A stretch of DNA of 53,331 nt from the NCBI GenBank assembly GCA_020832925.1, contig JAJHRF010000007.1, positions 1-53,331 on the forward strand, written 5' to 3'. This document shows, piece after piece, positions 3,933 to 50,186 of this stretch. The first letter of the stretch is position 1. Every line of letters begins with the position of its first letter. The stretch comes from Desulfurococcaceae archaeon (lineage in GTDB: Archaea > Thermoproteota > Thermoprotei_A > Sulfolobales > Ignisphaeraceae). Made by a program: the position numbers and the translations under genes. The notes below the pieces were generated by a model that did no database searches, was not told the DNA's origin, and worked only from the letters and a program-made list of their open reading frames with translations.

Positions 3933-5282
3933 TTATATAGGTATAGCTTTACCCCACTTCTCTAGAGCTCTTCTAAGTTCTTTATGATCTCTTGCATAAT
4001 CTTCTAGAGGTATACCTTTAGTAATAGCTTCTAGAGTTTGTCTAACAGCAGCTGCACCTGCTCTAGGTCCGTCGGGGTGCCCTATAACACCACCACCTAT
4101 CTGCATTACGCAGTCGATACCAAGTACTTTAACTACAGCTGGTAGATTTGCTGGGTGAAGCCCTCCTGAGGATACTGGTAGAGCTGGTTTTATATGGTAG
4201 AAGTATTGCTGTAGATGAAGCTCGTCGTCTTTATCAGGTGTGAACGGGTCTTCCCTTAAAACTTTCGCATTCCTTATAACGTCTATAGTCTTAGCTTCTA
4301 GTTTACCTACTTCTGGTGTACCTATGTGTAGCTGGTCTACACCTATAATTCTATAGAGTTTCGCTAGGGTAAACATCGATATACCGTGGTATGGATTCCT
4401 TGTTATAGCTGCATGCATAGCTCTATGAGCATGTATCGCAAGACCGTATTCTTCAGCTAGGTCCCTGATATATGTTAGAGCTGACCAACCCGCGATAACT
4501 ACGTCGACCATTATGTAGGGGTTGCCGTAGTCTGCTACAAGCTTCAGCCTTTTCTCCATCTCCCTGACATCAGCTGTTATGTTAGCGAACCAAACCTTTC
4601 TCTCACCTGTCTCCTTCTCAACTTTGTCTATGATCTTCATAATAGCTTTAGCACGTGCTTCAAATCTACAATAACTTGGGCTTACGAGGTTTTCATCGTC
4701 TTTAATGTAATCCATACCTCCTACAAGTATTTCGTAAGCTAGTTTCTCAACTTCATCAGCTGTATAACCAACCTTCGGCTTGGGGACTGTACCTACTATC
4801 GGTCTATCGTACACTTTGAATATATCTCTAACACCTTTAACCCCTTTAACAGGTCCTCTAAAGTACTTTATAAAGTCGTAGGGTAGGTATATATCTTCTA
4901 CCCTAAGACCTTTAACCCTCCTCATACCGAAGATATTACCAGCAACACTCGCTAGAAAACCTGGCATATTGTTTTCTTCGAATAGTTCTACAGGATACGC
5001 AATTCTTACAAGCCAAGACCCATCACCAAGATCTTTAAAGTAGTAAGCTTTACCCTTAAGTTTCTCAAGTCTTTTAACATCATACCACGGATACAACGTT
5101 GTCCATGTACCAGTACTACTTTCAGCAGCAACACCACCTGCAGCATCTTCTATAGTAAAACCTTCTGCTGGAGTTATCCTGAAAGTAACTATAACATCAT
5201 TCTTAAGATCTGGCTGATAATCTTTAACAACCCATGCTGAGTAAGGCTCGAAATCAGGCTTAGATTTAGATACTTCAGCCAT
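3933..5282 (-). CDS. rbcL: Ribulose-1,5-bisphosphate carboxylase, form III large subunit
   Basis: A full-length archaeal RuBisCO carboxylating ribulose 1,5-bisphosphate to two 3-phosphoglycerates. Counting from the upstream ATG at 5288, it has TGTWTTLYPW near 59-68, the catalytic KPK at 170-172, the carbamylated lysine in GGMDYIKDDEN (K196, D198, E199), HAHRAMH at 286-292, loop 6 GKLEAKT (K329), SSGGLHP near 373 and GGGVIGHPDGPRAGAAAVRQ near the end. Active-site residues are intact, so it should be a true carboxylase rather than a form IV relative. GGTG lies too close to the first ATG but 8 bases before the second (5282), which I take as the start. Form III enzymes normally work in AMP/nucleoside or pentose salvage. 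No small subunit is present. Confidence 0.95.
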   Translation of the reverse strand: MAEVSKSKPDFEPYSAWVVKDYQPDLKNDVIVTFRITPAEGFTIEDAAGGVAAESSTGTWTTLYPWYDVKRLEKLKGKAYYFKDLGDGSWLVRIAYPVELFEENNMPGFLASVAGNIFGMRRVKGLRVEDIYLPYDFIKYFRGPVKGVKGVRDIFKVYDRPIVGTVPKPKVGYTADEVEKLAYEILVGGMDYIKDDENLVSPSYCRFEARAKAIMKIIDKVEKETGERKVWFANITADVREMEKRLKLVADYGNPYIMVDVVIAGWSALTYIRDLAEEYGLAIHAHRAMHAAITRNPYHGISMFTLAKLYRIIGVDQLHIGTPEVGKLEAKTIDVIRNAKVLREDPFTPDKDDELHLQQYFYHIKPALPVSSGGLHPANLPAVVKVLGIDCVMQIGGGVIGHPDGPRAGAAAVRQTLEAITKGIPLEDYARDHKELRRALEKWGKAIPI

Positions 5283-5315
5283 CTGCATAACACCTACGTA
5301 TATAAGATGAACAAG

Positions 5316-39565: not shown

Positions 39566-40249
39566 TTAGAAGTTCTTGACGTTCCTCAAATTGTTTAAAG
39601 CTATTAAAGTTGATTGGTATGGATCTGAGCTTCTGGTTATAGCTGAACCTATAACTACTATTCTCGCACCGTTAGCTACGAAAAGCCCTACTTCATGAGG
39701 TTTTATACCTCCAGCAACCATTGTTATAACGCCGCTTGCCGATATCTCTGAAACCTCTTTTAGTAATTCTCTCGCTGTTACACCTCTTTTTCTCTGCACA
39801 TCTACACCAACATGTAGAGCTACTATATCTACACCAAGATCTGCGAGACGTAGAGCTTTATTTACAGGGTTAGAGATGTAGATAAGATCCGCTATCAGCG
39901 CTACCCCAGATTCTCTACATACTTTTACAGCTTCTTCGATAACATCATCGTCAACTATACTCAAGATTGTTACACCATTAACACCCTTCTTTATATAGGG
40001 AGAGAACTCTAGTTTTACAGCGTCAACTGTTTTCAAATCCGCTACTATAAGCTTGTCCATAGCGATCCTCTTTATAGAGTCAAGTGCTTGTATACCGTAG
40101 GCTTTGATTAGAGGTGTCCCTAGCTCTACTATATCTGCCCCTGCTTCTACAACTCTTGAAGCAACTTTAAGAGCTTCATCTAGATCTACGAAATCTAGCG
40201 CAATTTGTAGTAAAGGTTTTTTCTTAGCTTCCTCTACCAGTCTAGGCAT
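39566..40249 (-). CDS. 3-Hexulose-6-phosphate synthase
   Basis: A 227-residue OMP-decarboxylase-superfamily barrel. LQIALDFVDLDEALKVASRV, DIVELGTPLIKAYGIQAL and LIVADLKTVDAVKLE follow the HPS/KGPDC pattern (DxKxxD), and ALHVGVDVQRKRG and MVAGGIKPHEV complete it. In archaea without the oxidative pentose pathway HPS works backwards with 6-phospho-3-hexuloisomerase to make ribulose 5-phosphate from fructose 6-phosphate. The isomerase is not fused and not seen nearby. The start overlaps the end of the SerRS gene by 8 bases. Confidence 0.82.
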   Translation of the reverse strand: MPRLVEEAKKKPLLQIALDFVDLDEALKVASRVVEAGADIVELGTPLIKAYGIQALDSIKRIAMDKLIVADLKTVDAVKLEFSPYIKKGVNGVTILSIVDDDVIEEAVKVCRESGVALIADLIYISNPVNKALRLADLGVDIVALHVGVDVQRKRGVTARELLKEVSEISASGVITMVAGGIKPHEVGLFVANGARIVVIGSAITRSSDPYQSTLIALNNLRNVKNF

Positions 40250-41846
40250 TACCTAGACCCTCAAACATTTTGATTATATTCTTCAAAAACTCTTTACCAT
40301 CCTTAGTCTTCGGGTATGTTACGGTAAGTACAGATCTTGGGAAAGGTTCTTTCTTAACATATTCAAGGAATTTCTTAGGCCAGTTATCAGGATTAAACCC
40401 TTTCTGTGCTAGAAGAGATACTAACCATCGTTCACTACCGAAACCTGAACACCCTGTCCAAAGAATTTCACCTCTGTTATGTTTTATTCTGAAAGGCTCT
40501 GTAAACTTTGTTCCGTGTATAGAGATGTTGCCTACCTCTAACCAAGCTTTCTTATCGTCTCTACCACCTTTGTACGGTACCCAAACCTCTATATCTATAG
40601 TTCCAGGTGTATTTATATCGAGCTCCAGCTTCTCCTCGACTACCCCTGCCTGTTCGTAGAACCACGGTGTAACCCATGCAAATCTCCACTCCAAGTCCAA
40701 AACTTTATCTAAGAAATACTCGTACCTCTCCATAAGCTTATTCCTTATATCTATAACATGCTCAGGTTTCCCTAGCCACACAATCTCTATCCTATGGAAC
40801 TCTATTAGCCTCTCAATACCGTGAAGACCTCCTGCCTCCCATCTAAACGAAGGTCCGCTCATATCGTACCATTTTATAGGTAAAACAGCGTCATCGAGTA
40901 TTTCGTTCTCGAAAAACCAGTAGAAAGGTTCGCACTGTGCAAAGCATAAGAAGTATGATGGAGGTTCTAGGTATTTCTGTACTTCTTCAGGAGGAGCTGT
41001 ATCCATTACATACATGTAGTCTATCAGGGGCTCGAACTCAGCTATATTGTAGGTCTTCGGAAGAGATGCAAACACCATAGAGTTTATAACGCCTTTCAAA
41101 TGCCCTGTCTTCAACCCTACCTCTAGAGGGTACATCTTCGGGAAAGTAGCTTCATCAAATCCCAGAGGTTTCACTACCTCGTCTAGGAATAACCTTTTCA
41201 AAGCATTGAGTATGTGTGTTAGAGGTGGTGTATAGATCCACTGACCTATAGATACCCTCTTGATCCAGCCTATATCCTCCAAGATTTTGTTAGGATCATC
41301 AAAGAATTTCACAGTTTTCTCAGCACTTTTCTTGTAGAGTACCCAATGCTCCCCTTTACCACCCCATCTATATCTCCTCTCCTTCTCTTCAACCAATCTA
41401 AGAAGTCTTAAGAATATAGGTTTCTTAAGATCGCTCTCCGATAACTCGCTAAGTTCTACAACTGTTTTAGTTCCATCACTATATATGTTCTTCACGAAAG
41501 GTAGAGATAACGATATAGAGATGCTACCTTCTAACACAATCTTAGGCTCTATAAGCCTTAACCCCCGAATACCTATCCTAAAGTTTTTACCTAGTTCCTG
41601 AGCTAACACATTCCTAATCCTGAGAGAAGCTTCGTCTATTCTTACCCTAGAACCTGTTTCAAGAACGAAAACTATCTTATCCTCTTTCAATTCAAAACTA
41701 GATATATGGGCTCCTTCAACAGGGTCTCTCGCTCCACGTTTAAGATAAACATTGTTTAGGTACTGGATAACCTCTACAACCTTGCTCTTAGCCTCCTCTG
41801 GCAAAGGTTTGCTCAAGGTTACTTCAAGTACACCTGTTATACGCAT
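40242..41846 (-). CDS. serS: Seryl-tRNA synthetase, methanogen (rare) type
   Basis: A 534-residue class II synthetase that does not look like ordinary SerRS. It has the long N-terminal domain and the zinc-dependent core of the rare methanogen type: FAQCEPFYWFF (C305), EFHRIEIVWLG (E354) and WTGCSGFGSERW (C466), matching the Cys/Glu/Cys serine-binding zinc site known from Methanosarcina barkeri SerRS in both residue kind and spacing. Motif 2 lies in GPSFRWEAGGLHGIERLIEF and motif 3 in GFGSERW. It attaches serine to tRNA-Ser. It overlaps the HPS gene. Confidence 0.85.
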   Translation of the reverse strand: MRITGVLEVTLSKPLPEEAKSKVVEVIQYLNNVYLKRGARDPVEGAHISSFELKEDKIVFVLETGSRVRIDEASLRIRNVLAQELGKNFRIGIRGLRLIEPKIVLEGSISISLSLPFVKNIYSDGTKTVVELSELSESDLKKPIFLRLLRLVEEKERRYRWGGKGEHWVLYKKSAEKTVKFFDDPNKILEDIGWIKRVSIGQWIYTPPLTHILNALKRLFLDEVVKPLGFDEATFPKMYPLEVGLKTGHLKGVINSMVFASLPKTYNIAEFEPLIDYMYVMDTAPPEEVQKYLEPPSYFLCFAQCEPFYWFFENEILDDAVLPIKWYDMSGPSFRWEAGGLHGIERLIEFHRIEIVWLGKPEHVIDIRNKLMERYEYFLDKVLDLEWRFAWVTPWFYEQAGVVEEKLELDINTPGTIDIEVWVPYKGGRDDKKAWLEVGNISIHGTKFTEPFRIKHNRGEILWTGCSGFGSERWLVSLLAQKGFNPDNWPKKFLEYVKKEPFPRSVLTVTYPKTKDGKEFLKNIIKMFEGLGNA

Positions 41847-44471: not shown

Positions 44472-45230
44472 TTATTTCCTTAGTTTGCTTAATCTTTTTA
44501 GAAGCTCTTTATCTCCTTCAAAATCGCCAGCACATGTTGCTATAATTCCTTCAACAAGACCTTCTAGTTTTTCTGCATAAGATACAGCGTTCTCTAGATC
44601 TGTTGTGGGATTCCAACCTATTCTTGCAAGTATTTCGGCATTCTTGGGGGTCTTTATCAAGAAGTATGTGTATAGGGGTATGTTTAGTTTCTTTAGTTCT
44701 GCTGAGACCCCTTCCAGTATTGGGAAAGTCTCGTCGGTTAACCTCATAAAGAACGCGAAATCCCAGCCAGTTTTAACTCTGTTAACCATATCTTCAACTC
44801 CAAACTCTTTCTTATACCTATCTCTTACAGGTCTTGGCGAAAGCAGACATCCAAGTTTTACACGTCTCACCTTTACCTCGTTTCTTAGGAAATCTCTTGC
44901 ATCTTCAGATCTCTTCCAGTATTTAGGTGCTAAAGGCTCTCCATACTTAGGTTCGTCGCCGAAGGTTAGAACGAGACCATCTAGACCTAAAGCATCAGCT
45001 GCAAGAGCTAGTGCACCAACTTCTACAGGCCCTTTGTAGTTGAGGATGAATATGGGTATAACAATTTTATCAGGGTACTTAATCTTCAGAACACATCCAA
45101 CAGCTGTTCCACTTGGTGCAGGAACACCGGCTGCGCTGTCGGTGATATTCCATCCATCAACAAGATCTTTCGTTTCCTCAGCCATCTGTAGAAACTTTCT
45201 AGTAGGTACAAATTCGTGTAGTATCTTCAT
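44472..45230 (-). CDS. Methylenetetrahydrofolate reductase-like TIM barrel protein
   Basis: A 252-residue protein resembling the FAD-linked MTHFR barrel: LVDGWNITDSAAGVPAPSGT near the N-terminus, ADALGLDGLVLTFGDEPKYG (the family's GD-containing strand) and LGCLLSPRP. It would reduce a methylene-pterin C1 carrier, or be a divergent relative. It is shorter than bacterial MetF and no flavin site is provable by eye. GGTGG precedes the ATG by 4 bases and CTTATAAAAT is the TATA box; its promoter region is shared with the divergent MfnD-like gene. Confidence 0.6.
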   Translation of the reverse strand: MKILHEFVPTRKFLQMAEETKDLVDGWNITDSAAGVPAPSGTAVGCVLKIKYPDKIVIPIFILNYKGPVEVGALALAADALGLDGLVLTFGDEPKYGEPLAPKYWKRSEDARDFLRNEVKVRRVKLGCLLSPRPVRDRYKKEFGVEDMVNRVKTGWDFAFFMRLTDETFPILEGVSAELKKLNIPLYTYFLIKTPKNAEILARIGWNPTTDLENAVSYAEKLEGLVEGIIATCAGDFEGDKELLKRLSKLRK

Positions 45231-45325
45231 GTAACCACCGTGGAGTATATCCGATGATCCTATTTTATAAGTTTTTATGTATATAAATCCCCTCGATTAT
45301 CTATTGGTAAAGTTTGGGGATAAGC

Positions 45326-46474
45326 TTGAAACAGTTTTCAGTATTAGTAACAGAGTACTTCACAAGCATATTCGATCCTTATACATGTTCAGCAAATCTT
45401 TTAGGAGAGGCTTGTGGAATGCTTTTCTCGTTGATAAAGATATTGAAGATCGCGAATGTAGATATAATCACCACTTTATCGCCTTACCTAGCCGAAATTT
45501 TAAAGCATACGCTAAGAGATGTAGATATCGAAATTACCTCGAAAGAGAAATACTTCGAGCAAATAGATATGTTAAAGAATTACGTAGACTATGTCATAGC
45601 TATAGCTCCCCCAATACAATTACAAACTATAAGCGAAATTGTTAACCAGAAACTCCTAGGACCGCCACCTACCCTCATAAAATCCTTATCCAATAAATAC
45701 GAAGCATTGAATATCTTGAAGAAGTACGGTATTGATACACCAACTACTATAATTTGCTGTAAAGATATGTGCGAATATAGAGTAGAAGATCTGATGATAC
45801 CTGTAGTAGTGAAACCTGCTATGTTAACAGGAGCTGAATGTGTTTACGTTGTTAATGATAAGAATAAGGTTAGAGAATATGTGGAGAAAGTTATGGAGTG
45901 CGATCCAACACATTGTGTTGTTATTCAGGAGTATATCCCAGGGTACCATGGAAGTATATCTGTTGTTCTAGATCATGGCGAAGTTTTACTGGTTTCTCTA
46001 AATCTTCAACTTATCTCGATTAAGAATAGCTCTGTGAAGTACCATGGAAATATCTTACCATTACGTGATAAAGCCTCTGTGAGGAAAGCTTTAGATATTG
46101 CAGATAAATTAAGATACTTAAATGAGTTGAACGGATATATAGGGCTAGATGTTGTATGGAATGAGAAGATGTATGTAGTCGAGGTTAATCCTAGATTTAC
46201 CACATCTGGTATAGGTATAGTAGAGGTATACCCAGTTCTCGGAGCAATTTTTTTAAAGAAAATTAAACCGAAGAAACGTTACCTTGCCGAAGAAGTCCTA
46301 GGCTATGCGTATGTGGTTAAGAGATTGAGAACTCCAAGTAGTTTCTACGATATCTGTTTAAACGGTCTAGCATATGGATATACCGAATCTTTTACCAAAG
46401 TCCTTGAGATTTTGAAACAAGCAAATCCTAACGCTTTAGAAGGTCTTCTCTACAATATTAATACTATTGCTTGA
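45326..46474 (+). CDS. ATP-grasp ligase, tyramine-glutamate ligase (MfnD)-like
   Basis: A protein of about 382 residues (start TTG 45326, MKQFSVLVTEYF, with GGGGA 5 bases upstream; TTG 45314 is an in-frame alternative). It has a pre-ATP-grasp domain (to about 110) with LLGEACGMLFSLI and DYVIAIAPP, then the ATP-grasp: SNKYEALNILKKYGIDTPTT, VVVKPAMLTGAECVYVV, VIQEYIPGYHGSISVVL and YIGLDVVWNEKMYVVEVNPR. This pattern is that of MfnD, which joins glutamate to tyramine in methanofuran synthesis, and of related amino-acid ligases. The actual acceptor is unknown. Confidence 0.6.
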   Translation: MKQFSVLVTEYFTSIFDPYTCSANLLGEACGMLFSLIKILKIANVDIITTLSPYLAEILKHTLRDVDIEITSKEKYFEQIDMLKNYVDYVIAIAPPIQLQTISEIVNQKLLGPPPTLIKSLSNKYEALNILKKYGIDTPTTIICCKDMCEYRVEDLMIPVVVKPAMLTGAECVYVVNDKNKVREYVEKVMECDPTHCVVIQEYIPGYHGSISVVLDHGEVLLVSLNLQLISIKNSSVKYHGNILPLRDKASVRKALDIADKLRYLNELNGYIGLDVVWNEKMYVVEVNPRFTTSGIGIVEVYPVLGAIFLKKIKPKKRYLAEEVLGYAYVVKRLRTPSSFYDICLNGLAYGYTESFTKVLEILKQANPNALEGLLYNINTIA

Positions 46475-47339
46475 TGAGCTTCACCTTGACTAAGAGCGCT
46501 GGATAATGATAAATCTTCCTCATATCTACCCATCTTATGTTATCGAAATTTTCAACACCTAGAGCTTGAATCATCTCCACAATATTTCTTCCAAAACCTG
46601 ACCCCATATATTTTGAACATACCTTAGCTATTTTAAGGATTATAGGTAGACCTAGGTCTATACCTACATAAGCTACAGGGGTTGGGTATAAGGTGAAGTA
46701 TTTTCTAAAAATCCTCCCTAAGAAGTATGCATAAGCACCTAGATCTATAACACCTCTAATTGAGGAAGATCTTGTTGAGAATGCGATGTTTCTCAAGAAC
46801 CTCGGTTTAAAAGTTCTATCTGTATCGATAATAAGTATATTAACAAACTTACCTAGTTTATAGGCAATGTTTTTCCTTATGTCCTCGGCAACTTTAAGAG
46901 GGTTTCTTAGAGGTAGAGAGACATATCTATATGGGAGGTTCGTTGTATCTATACCTGCTTCTGAAATAGGTTTTAGGAAATGTTTAACTCCTCCATATCT
47001 AAGCGCAACCTTTTTATGAGAAGCCGCCAACTCCAGCGGTACATTGTTTATAAGTTTAATAATATTGTAGTTCTTGAACACAAACCTCAGGATTTTCCCC
47101 CACAGAATCTTCATAACGATAAACGTTGCTATACTCGTTAAAGGATCGGCTTTAACAAGATTTTCATCGTATATATTTCCGAGAGCTGTAGATAGAGCTT
47201 TTTCCGATAAAACTACGAAATCGTTACTCTCTATATACCTACGATACTTCCTAATAATCTCGTTAACAACATCTGTTCCCGGGTACCAGTACTGGAAATG
47301 TTTACGTATTATCCTCAACTTCAATCTATACTTAACCAC
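46464..47339 (-). CDS. CofE-like F420-0:gamma-glutamyl ligase family protein
   Basis: A 291-residue protein related to the F420 gamma-glutamyl ligase fold. It has NDFVVLSEKALSTALGNIYD near 37, KHFLKPISEAGIDTTNLPYR near 118-137 and FVNILIIDTDRTFKP, which correspond to the nucleotide and metal segments of CofE. The pattern is divergent, so it may ligate glutamate to another cofactor. Start is GTG at 47339, though a TTG 15 bases inside has GGTGG upstream. It overlaps the end of the convergent MfnD-like gene and lies downstream of the MptN-like gene on the same strand. Confidence 0.6.
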   Translation of the reverse strand: MVKYRLKLRIIRKHFQYWYPGTDVVNEIIRKYRRYIESNDFVVLSEKALSTALGNIYDENLVKADPLTSIATFIVMKILWGKILRFVFKNYNIIKLINNVPLELAASHKKVALRYGGVKHFLKPISEAGIDTTNLPYRYVSLPLRNPLKVAEDIRKNIAYKLGKFVNILIIDTDRTFKPRFLRNIAFSTRSSSIRGVIDLGAYAYFLGRIFRKYFTLYPTPVAYVGIDLGLPIILKIAKVCSKYMGSGFGRNIVEMIQALGVENFDNIRWVDMRKIYHYPALLVKVKLIKQ

Positions 47340-47358
47340 CTATTCTTAACCTCTCTCG

Positions 47359-48255
47359 TCATTTCTTAACCTTATCCACGATATACTTGGCTATTTCTTT
47401 AGCTATATCGATCTCGGGGAAAGCTTCCTGCAACCCTCTCCAACCAGGTTGACTATTGACTTCGAACACGTATATACCTTCCTTCGTATCAGCTATGTCA
47501 ACTCCTGCTATATCGCATTCCAGAACTTTCGCCGCTTTTACAGCTACTTCTTCGATTAACGGATCTAGTTTATCTATTCTAGAAGGTTTGCCACCTCTAG
47601 CAATATTTGTTTTCCAACTACCTTCAGGTGCTATTCTATACATTGCTGCTAGAACTCTATCACCTAAAACGAAAACCCTTATATCAACACCTTTATGAGG
47701 AACAAACTTCTGTATGTAAGCAGTTTTCCTGATAAATGTTATAGACCTGATGATCTCCCACAGAACATCTCTATCCCTAACCCTAGCACTCCCATGACCT
47801 CGGGAACCGAACATAGGTTTAATAACAACATCCTTAAATCTAAACATATCTACAGCTCTTAAAGCTAAAGAACATCTTTCCGTTACCAAGGTCTCTGGAA
47901 CAGGTACTCCATACATTTTCAATAAGTAAAGCGATCTAAACTTATCTACACATTTCTCGATCGCCGAAGGCTTATTAAAAACAGCTACACCATGGTCTTG
48001 TAAAGCGTACAAGAGATCTATTCTAAAAATTGCTTGGTCTAAACTAACACGTCCAAAAGGTCTTACAACAACAGCTGATAAACTTTCAACTATATCTATA
48101 CCTTTTACAAGAAGTTTAAGCCCGTTTTGGGATATATACGCAATGATATCGCTGAACTTAAACGGTAGAACACTATGACCTAGGGATTCAAAAGCTTTTA
48201 TAAGATTCGAAGAACTCCAGCTATTTGGGTTACGAGTTATAATACCTATGTTCAT
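47359..48255 (-). CDS. RimK-family ATP-grasp glutamate ligase, MptN/CofF-like
   Basis: A protein of about 298 residues starting MNIGIITRNP (ATG 48255, with AAGGTG 9 bases upstream; TTG 48267 would add four residues). ATP-grasp motifs are DKFRSLYLLKMYGVPVPETL, VVIKPMFGSRGHGSARV, IQKFVPHKGVDIRVFVLGDR, WKTNIARGGKPSRID and VFEVNSQPGWRGLQ. This is the RimK/MptN/CofF group, which adds glutamate to tetrahydromethanopterin, F420 or a protein. With CofE- and MfnD-like neighbours a cofactor tail is more likely than ribosomal S6. Confidence 0.7.
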   Translation of the reverse strand: MNIGIITRNPNSWSSSNLIKAFESLGHSVLPFKFSDIIAYISQNGLKLLVKGIDIVESLSAVVVRPFGRVSLDQAIFRIDLLYALQDHGVAVFNKPSAIEKCVDKFRSLYLLKMYGVPVPETLVTERCSLALRAVDMFRFKDVVIKPMFGSRGHGSARVRDRDVLWEIIRSITFIRKTAYIQKFVPHKGVDIRVFVLGDRVLAAMYRIAPEGSWKTNIARGGKPSRIDKLDPLIEEVAVKAAKVLECDIAGVDIADTKEGIYVFEVNSQPGWRGLQEAFPEIDIAKEIAKYIVDKVKK

Positions 48256-48366
48256 CAGCTTCAACACCTTGACATAGCAGCTCTAGGTTCCTTAGATCCT
48301 AGAAGAACTTATAAACTACGTGGATATGTAAACAACGCTTAGATCTTATAAACTATTAGAGGAATA

Positions 48367-49449
48367 ATGTTTATGAGAGGTTTTAGAGATAGAGATTTTA
48401 TAGAATCTGTCGAAGGTTTGATATTCTGTGTCATAGGGAATATACATCCAAAGGATAGAGTTATTTCGTATCTTAAATATGTACCTCATCTAGAGTCACG
48501 TATAAGAGTTAAATGGTCTAGAGATGGTGTTATGTATGGCCGTATACTTCCATTCTATAGCGCTATAGGGGTTAAGAGTGCGCTCGATTTCCTTAAGAAG
48601 TATTACCCTCAGTACATTGTTTTCGATAGATATAGATCTATAGAGTTGATAGAAGTTCCTAGAGACAGGATTAAGATACACTACAAACCAGAGGAAAGGT
48701 TAAGAGAACTTGTAGAAGAGCCTAAAGATGGTTTAGAGGTTTTAGCAAAAGAACTAGTTGAAAAACTTTCACAAGAATCTGGTGTACCTCTAAACTACTT
48801 CGGGATTACAGGGTCTATACTCCTCAAAATCCACAATCCATCAATTTCAGACATAGATATAGTGGTGTATGGTAAAGATAATGCGTATAGAGTTAGAGAT
48901 ACATTGATAAAGCTACTAGATACTGAAGCTCTAGGGTTTAGCAGACCTAAAGATGGTATTCTAGAGTCTTGGGCAGAAGATATAACTAGAATACATCCGT
49001 TAACACTTGATGAAGCTAAAACTCTTTATGGTAAGTATAAATGGAATAGAGCATTATATAAAGGGAAACAGTTCTCCCTACACCCTGTTAAACTCGATGA
49101 AGAGGTTGATGAAGAATGGGGGCAGAAGTTGTTTAAACCAATAGGTATTGCAACTATCAGAGCTAGAGTTGTTGATGCTAGCGAATCTATATTCATGCCT
49201 TCGATATACATCGTCGATAACGTGAAGATTCTGGAAGGTGATGAGAAAGGGAGTAGAGTTAGATTCGTAGTTAGCTATGAAGGTCTCTACATAGATATAG
49301 CTAAACCAGGTGATGAAATTATTGCTAGAGGTAAACTTGAAGAGGTACACGATCTAAAGAGAAACGAAGTATATTACCAGCTAACTATAGGTACTTATGA
49401 AGCTCAAGGTAAAGACTATATAAAACCTATCGAATGGATAAAAAGGTGA
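48367..49449 (+). CDS. Predicted nucleotidyltransferase (COG1665-like)
   Basis: A 360-residue protein with a pol-beta-type nucleotidyltransferase core: FGITGSILLKIHNPSISDID has GS at 149-150 and the metal aspartates D162 and D164. The N-terminal 110 residues and the beta-rich C-terminal 100 residues are separate domains. Targets are unknown; archaeal proteins of this type are uncharacterised. It overlaps the MfnB-like gene by 16 bases, so the two are co-transcribed, suggesting a nucleotidyl transfer step in the same pathway, though that is inference. ATG 48373 is an alternative start. Confidence 0.65.
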   Translation: MFMRGFRDRDFIESVEGLIFCVIGNIHPKDRVISYLKYVPHLESRIRVKWSRDGVMYGRILPFYSAIGVKSALDFLKKYYPQYIVFDRYRSIELIEVPRDRIKIHYKPEERLRELVEEPKDGLEVLAKELVEKLSQESGVPLNYFGITGSILLKIHNPSISDIDIVVYGKDNAYRVRDTLIKLLDTEALGFSRPKDGILESWAEDITRIHPLTLDEAKTLYGKYKWNRALYKGKQFSLHPVKLDEEVDEEWGQKLFKPIGIATIRARVVDASESIFMPSIYIVDNVKILEGDEKGSRVRFVVSYEGLYIDIAKPGDEIIARGKLEEVHDLKRNEVYYQLTIGTYEAQGKDYIKPIEWIKR

Positions 49450-50186
49450 TAAAGATTAGAACCCCGAAGCTCTTAGTCTCGATAAAGAATGTAGATGAAG
49501 TTTACGAAGCTGTTGAAGGTGGAGCTGATATTGTGGATATCAAAGATCCTAACGATGGTAGTCTAGGTCTTCCAGATCTTGAGGTAGTTAGAGATGTTAT
49601 TAAAATTGTTAGATCTCTTAGTAGTAATCCTGTTAGTATTGCTTTAGGTGATATAAGGAGGTATAGTAAGTACTTATCGTATTTAGTGTTTGCTAGCTGT
49701 GTTCTAGGTGTAGATTATATTAAGACAGGTATAGCTATGGAGAATCTAGATGAAGCTCTCTATGTAGCTACTAAGGTAGCAGATATATCAAAAACGTTTA
49801 GTAGAACCAATGTTGTACTTGTAGGTTACGCAGATTACATTAATATAAATTCTATCGAACCGCTAAAAGTAGTTGATATAGCATTGAAAACTGGTGCAAA
49901 AGGTGTTATGATAGATACTTTTGAGAAAAAAGGTTTATCAACCTTCGACATACTCTCGGTAGAATACCTTAAGACTTTCGTTAAGAAAGCTCAAGATGCA
50001 AATCTTTTAACAGCTATAGCAGGTAGTTTAAAACTTAACCATATACCTCTCTGTGTAAAACTAGGTTTCGATGTAATAGGTGTTAGAGGAGCTGTATGCA
50101 TAGGTAATAGAAACGGTAAAGTATCTAAAGAATTAGTGAAGATGCTTAAGGTAGAGATAGCTAAAACTCTACAGAATATCCGATAG
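49434..50186 (+). CDS. MfnB-like (5-formylfuran-3-yl)methyl phosphate synthase
   Basis: A 250-residue TIM barrel of the DUF556/MfnB family, which in methanogens condenses two glyceraldehyde-3-phosphates into the furan precursor of methanofuran. Visible are LLVSIKNVDEVYEAVEGGAD, DIVDIKDPNDGSLG with K37 in the place of the methanogen Schiff-base lysine, VDYIKTGI (K97), GVMIDTFEKKG (D161, K165/K166) and FDVIGVRGAVCIGNRNGKV at the phosphate-binding end. The catalytic residues expected from methanogen MfnB appear kept. It is the last intact gene before the decayed zone. Confidence 0.78.
   Translation: MDKKVIKIRTPKLLVSIKNVDEVYEAVEGGADIVDIKDPNDGSLGLPDLEVVRDVIKIVRSLSSNPVSIALGDIRRYSKYLSYLVFASCVLGVDYIKTGIAMENLDEALYVATKVADISKTFSRTNVVLVGYADYININSIEPLKVVDIALKTGAKGVMIDTFEKKGLSTFDILSVEYLKTFVKKAQDANLLTAIAGSLKLNHIPLCVKLGFDVIGVRGAVCIGNRNGKVSKELVKMLKVEIAKTLQNIR

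Follow-up and report, generated by a model that had tools for sequence, protein, structure and literature searches.

The window analysed here, a stretch of 53,331 nucleotides from a Desulfurococcaceae archaeon (contig 23 of a 1.88 Mb genome, G000), carries six genes at positions 44472-50186, one of which encodes a divergent CofE-fold ligase that we call CofE2. The source is a heat-loving archaeon, and we know of no report that it makes methane. An earlier note on this DNA had likened five of the six products to enzymes of methanogenic cofactor synthesis or use. All six open reading frames were found where they had been placed, and the five kinships were recovered by profile searches and predicted folds, with a strength that varied from gene to gene (Table 1). 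The view that the cluster helps to build and use the one-carbon (C1) carriers of methane-makers was largely right.

Table 1. Genes of the cluster, with their positions in the window and the evidence for each assignment. MTHFR, methylenetetrahydrofolate reductase; MFR, methanofuran.
Product	Position	Strand	Evidence
MTHFR-fold protein, probable F420-independent methylene-tetrahydropterin reductase (Mer replacement)	44472..45230	-	AlphaFold model, Foldseek, invariant Glu6/Asp92
ATP-grasp ligase, MfnD/MyfA-like, candidate tyramine/tyrosine or MFR glutamate ligase	45314..46474	+	ATP-grasp_3 108.7 bits
CofE2, divergent CofE-fold ligase, candidate methanofuran glutamyl ligase	46464..47339	-	fold, own clade, co-occurrence with Ftr, no CofD
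MptN/MyfB-like RimK-family glutamate ligase	47359..48267	-	MptN 248.5 bits, RimK family 207 bits
Nucleotidyltransferase-domain protein	48367..49449	+	PF01909 21.2 bits, at its cut-off; 16-base overlap with mfnB
MfnB, (5-formylfuran-3-yl)methyl phosphate synthase	49434..50186	+	PF04476 215.5 bits; MJ1099 6.9e-39

The new part of the analysis is the CofE homologue, which belongs to a clade of its own apart from the F420 enzyme CofE. CofE2 gave a partial match to the Pfam F420_ligase family (47 bits, cut-off 25), and with 28.7 bits it missed the NCBIfam CofE equivalog cut-off of 180.65 bits; all nine homologues compared also matched this model weakly. When the AlphaFold model of CofE2 was searched with Foldseek, CofE was the sole family matched at E < 0.001 (2phn, E = 1.2e-9). 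CofE2 shares with the CofE structures (2phn, 2g9i, 7uld) the fold and the aligned AGID and D-x-D segments, but the identity is only about 15% and the protein is longer (291 amino acids). In a tree of 72 sequences, CofE2 (49) and CofE (23) formed separate clades with 100/100 support. The source genome and a further seven genomes of the order with CofE2 yielded neither CofD nor a canonical CofE, and F420 therefore cannot be the purpose of CofE2 in the source genome. This point, the strongest of the locus, was overlooked in the earlier note: the CofE homologue cannot serve F420 here because CofD is absent. Two other genomes of the genus, G005 and G011, carry CofD, canonical CofE and F420-dependent Mtd alongside CofE2, and G011 also has a CofC-like gene.

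The earlier note had left it to relatives to show whether the cluster is conserved, and it is. The order ATP-grasp, CofE2, MptN-like ligase, nucleotidyltransferase, mfnB was unchanged in G010 (L019), the same five genes lay mostly together in G009 (L021), and gene pairs from the cluster recurred at 35-74% identity both in congeneric species and in a different family, so that the clustering is not due to chance. Elsewhere mfnB adjoined mfnE/mfnF, the ATP-grasp gene (linked to it in five further genomes) or an MtrH-family gene, and in a further genus (G061, G124) it was found together with the nucleotidyltransferase gene, mfnE and mfnF. The MptN-like gene was adjoined by mch or fwd genes in several relatives. 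From Ignisphaera to Bathyarchaeota, the nucleotidyltransferase-domain gene was repeatedly found near mfnB or CofE2; no pathway step could be tied to its protein.

Family placement, which the earlier note had proposed for both MfnB and MfnD, stood for the first and was weak for the second. MfnB exceeded the cut-off of the 4-HFC-P synthase family PF04476 (22.4 bits) almost tenfold and matched Methanocaldococcus jannaschii MJ1099 (4rc1/4u9p), its DTxxK segment aligning with the region of the catalytic Lys155. The gene was found in all ten high-quality genomes tested in the family, in fragmentary form in two. The NCBIfam equivalog cut-offs were not reached by MfnB of the window, nor by MfnE and MfnF. 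For the ATP-grasp protein the best NCBIfam match was MfnD, but at 68.5 bits (equivalog cut-off, 400 bits) and only over residues 193-320, in the C-terminal half; MfnD was likewise the model with the best E value for six of six homologues. The MptN-like ligase passed the NCBIfam RimK family cut-off (143 bits) and came near that of the MptN equivalog (350 bits) without reaching it.

The MTHFR-like protein had no match in Pfam or NCBIfam and so could not be assigned to the MTHFR family by sequence. However, its AlphaFold model (pLDDT, the predicted local distance difference test score, 91.5) gave top Foldseek matches that were all MTHFR (E about 1e-7), and it shares with MTHFR/MetF and Mer the TIM-barrel fold, a glutamate close to where the first strand ends and an aspartate following glycine. 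Glu6 and the GD motif (Asp92) were invariant in 12 homologues. Placed by sequence order and not by superposition, Glu6 matches the position of the key catalytic glutamate in MTHFR, Mfr and Mer (Glu28, Glu9 and Glu6, respectively; PMC11094777). Within the genus its homologues share at least 75% identity; none was found in G005 or G011, which alone among the members have CofD, or in the 75%-complete G006. This distribution is in keeping with its probable role as a substitute for F420-dependent Mer, as has been proposed for MetF in ANME-1 (PMC9012536).

That nothing else suggests methanogenesis, as the earlier note put it, is true of the window, but a C1 branch lies elsewhere in the genome. Contig C51 carries mfnE and mfnF with a HisA/F-related, orf17-like gene. 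An operon on contig C59 encodes complex-I/hydrogenase-like and antiporter subunits, an MtdA/B-like dehydrogenase (PF09176), Ftr, a FwdD-FwdB fusion, FwdA, FwdC and Mch, and the Ftr, Fwd and Mch proteins are conventional, with strong family matches. With MfnF, MfnE, Ftr and Fwd all encoded, the methanofuran pathway is represented, and the organism very probably makes glutamylated methanofuran. To this extent the glutamylated methanofuran- or pterin-like carrier of the earlier note is retained, but its suggested novelty is not required, as the core enzymes are homologues of known Mfn proteins. The PF09176 dehydrogenase (L061:11384-12298), which comes first in this archaeal ftr-fwd-mch operon, is of the MtdA/MtdB type known from methylotrophic bacteria; it is common to several F420-less relatives, and in the F420-containing G005 and G011 its place is held by F420-Mtd.

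In a set of 30 genomes, an intact mfnB accompanied every occurrence of MfnF, of Ftr and of FwdA (counted over its cut-off), and none of the three was found in G002 (Ignisphaera aggregans) or G008, which have mfnB fragments only. The remnants (L022:9284-9884, L172:926-1084 and L023:9489-9689) consist of a decayed mfnB, broken across frames, and a scrap of CofE2 in I. aggregans, and of the last third of mfnB, beside an intact MtrH gene, in G008. The whole methanofuran branch (mfnF, ftr, fwdA and intact CofE2) has been lost jointly in these two species, both of which keep the MTHFR-like gene. The presence of the pathway in Ignisphaera is not new, since it was already outlined that some Ignisphaera genomes encode the C1 functions linked to tetrahydromethanopterin (H4MPT) and methanofuran and others do not (PMC5020050, Chistoserdova 2016).

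To follow the distribution of CofE2 across Thermoproteota, a threshold of about 140 bits was applied to it, with the fragmentary G151 added, and Ftr was counted over its cut-off. MfnF was present in only 63 genomes and made a poor co-occurrence test, and Ftr and Mch were used instead. In 397 Thermoproteota genomes, CofE2 was found in 117, Ftr in 119 and Mch in 119; CofE2 occurred with Ftr in 113 and with Mch in 112, and each of the 117 CofE2 genomes had one or the other. Roughly half of the Thermoproteota genomes with Ftr had no TIGR03123/MfnF match, and these must therefore either use a different condensing enzyme for methanofuran or acquire the cofactor. Named relatives of CofE2 were found in Methanomethylicia, Culexarchaeum, Sulfolobales, Bathyarchaeota and Geothermarchaeota; public genomes were scanned for it with degenerate patterns, by which distant kin would be missed. 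In Methanomethylicia, Culexarchaeum, Sulfolobales and Ignisphaera, the gene lies next to ftr/fwd/mch/mtd or mfn genes.

Taken together, the cluster would serve methanofuran synthesis and H4MPT-linked C1 metabolism in this Ignisphaera-like archaeon, a reading to which we give a probability of roughly 0.55. MfnB would form the furan phosphate, which MfnE and MfnF, encoded on the other contig, would activate and join to (glutamyl-)tyramine or tyrosine. The MfnD-like ATP-grasp protein, the MptN/MyfB-like ligase and CofE2 may then attach and lengthen the glutamate tail. For F420, CofE is reported to phosphorylate the carboxylate and add glutamate at the chain end (PMC10861534). If this chemistry carries over to CofE2, the terminal carboxylate would first be phosphorylated in a nucleotide- and metal-dependent reaction and then attacked by L-glutamate, and the cycle repeated. 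The finished methanofuran would shuttle formyl groups between Fwd and Ftr, with Mch and the MtdA/B-like dehydrogenase acting next on the H4MPT-bound carbon, and the MTHFR-like protein would convert methylene to methyl without F420. The substrate of CofE2 is more probably the methanofuran tail than H4MPT. The wider proposal, that CofE2 adds the glutamates beyond the first on archaeal methanofuran and represents a CofE-derived, F420-independent ligase family across Thermoproteota wherever formyl-methanofuran is used, is about evenly balanced.

The main competitor, which we hold to be unlikely though worth serious attention, is that CofE2 glutamylates H4MPT, for example by acting with the MptN-like ligase to give a tail of the sarcinapterin type. 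CofE2 tracks Mch as closely as Ftr, and several observations weigh against a methanofuran substrate. The co-occurrence with Ftr (Fisher p 5.6e-86) was calculated in a manner that ignores phylogeny; 57 CofE2 genomes, most of them with Ftr, lack MfnF; and in Bathyarchaeota CofE2 follows cdhABCDE, the carbon monoxide dehydrogenase/acetyl-CoA synthase genes, and two MinD/ParA-type ATPase genes, or else precedes either a dihydropteroate synthase-like gene, a beta-RFAP synthase gene and a DUF447 gene, or F420-Mtd. However, in Ignisphaera and related archaea the genes linked to CofE2 are mfnB and ftr, and G008 (with MtrH and the reductase) and G002 (with the reductase) probably still use a pterin, yet their CofE2 is lost or broken. 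Because of this linkage, and because CofE2 was lost while pterin enzymes stayed, methanofuran is favoured as the substrate. At L133:3697-6852 and similar bathyarchaeal loci, the genes adjoining CofE2 form an H4MPT-synthesis trio (dihydropteroate synthase-like TIGR00284, beta-RFAP synthase and DUF447), of which the DUF447 protein may carry out a further synthesis step.

A furan or pterin carrier other than methanofuran would be in keeping with the sub-cut-off NCBIfam scores of the MfnD-like protein and of MfnB, MfnE and MfnF, and with tail enzymes unlike those of methanogens. We consider it improbable, as MfnB and MfnF homologues are present, the Ftr, Fwd and Mch proteins are conventional, and Fwd and Ftr are known to act on methanofuran. 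Least credible by far is a diverged F420 gamma-glutamyl ligase of these archaea, to which the CofE fold and the partial F420_ligase match might point: the CofE model is missed widely in the source genome and matched weakly by the homologues, and the clades are separate. A role as an F420 enzyme was ruled out by the absence of CofD from the source genome and seven other carriers of the order, and by the canonical CofE that co-exists with CofE2 in G005 and G011.

The system resembles MfnA-F of M. jannaschii in its MfnB, MfnE and MfnF homologues, whose products are used by Fwd and Ftr, but here MfnD is distant and CofE-fold and MptN-like ligases lie inside the cluster. In bacteria, MfnD-like MyfA and MptN-like MyfB are reported to extend the glutamate tail of methylofuran, and Orf17, of the HisA/F-like family, is required for methylofuran in Methylorubrum (PMC8141765). 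As in that system, mfn genes here are linked to those for an MfnD-like ATP-grasp protein, an MptN-like ligase and an Orf17-type protein, whereas the tightly linked CofE-type ligase found here has no counterpart described there. The same paper states the enzymes lengthening the glutamate tail of archaeal methanofuran to be unidentified (PMC8141765), and no CofE-type ligase acting on methanofuran appeared among the best matches of an open-access literature search.

Elsewhere in the window, a methanogen-type seryl-tRNA synthetase, unexpected in this order, is encoded at 40242-41846 (minus strand; PRK00960 601.9 bits, serS_MJ 330 bits). An open reading frame judged by eye to resemble the RuBisCO large subunit lies at 3933-5288 (minus strand), and a 3-hexulose-6-phosphate synthase gene at 39566-40249 adds a further gene of carbon metabolism.

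CofE2 offers a single, expressible, thermophilic candidate for the enzyme that lengthens the methanofuran tail, and in Thermoproteota it is a more faithful marker of the formyl-methanofuran pathway than MfnF. A natural experiment is offered by the genus itself, in which species with F420 (CofD, canonical CofE and F420-Mtd) can be set against F420-less species with the MtdA/B-like dehydrogenase and the MTHFR-like reductase, and against those that have lost the methanofuran branch.

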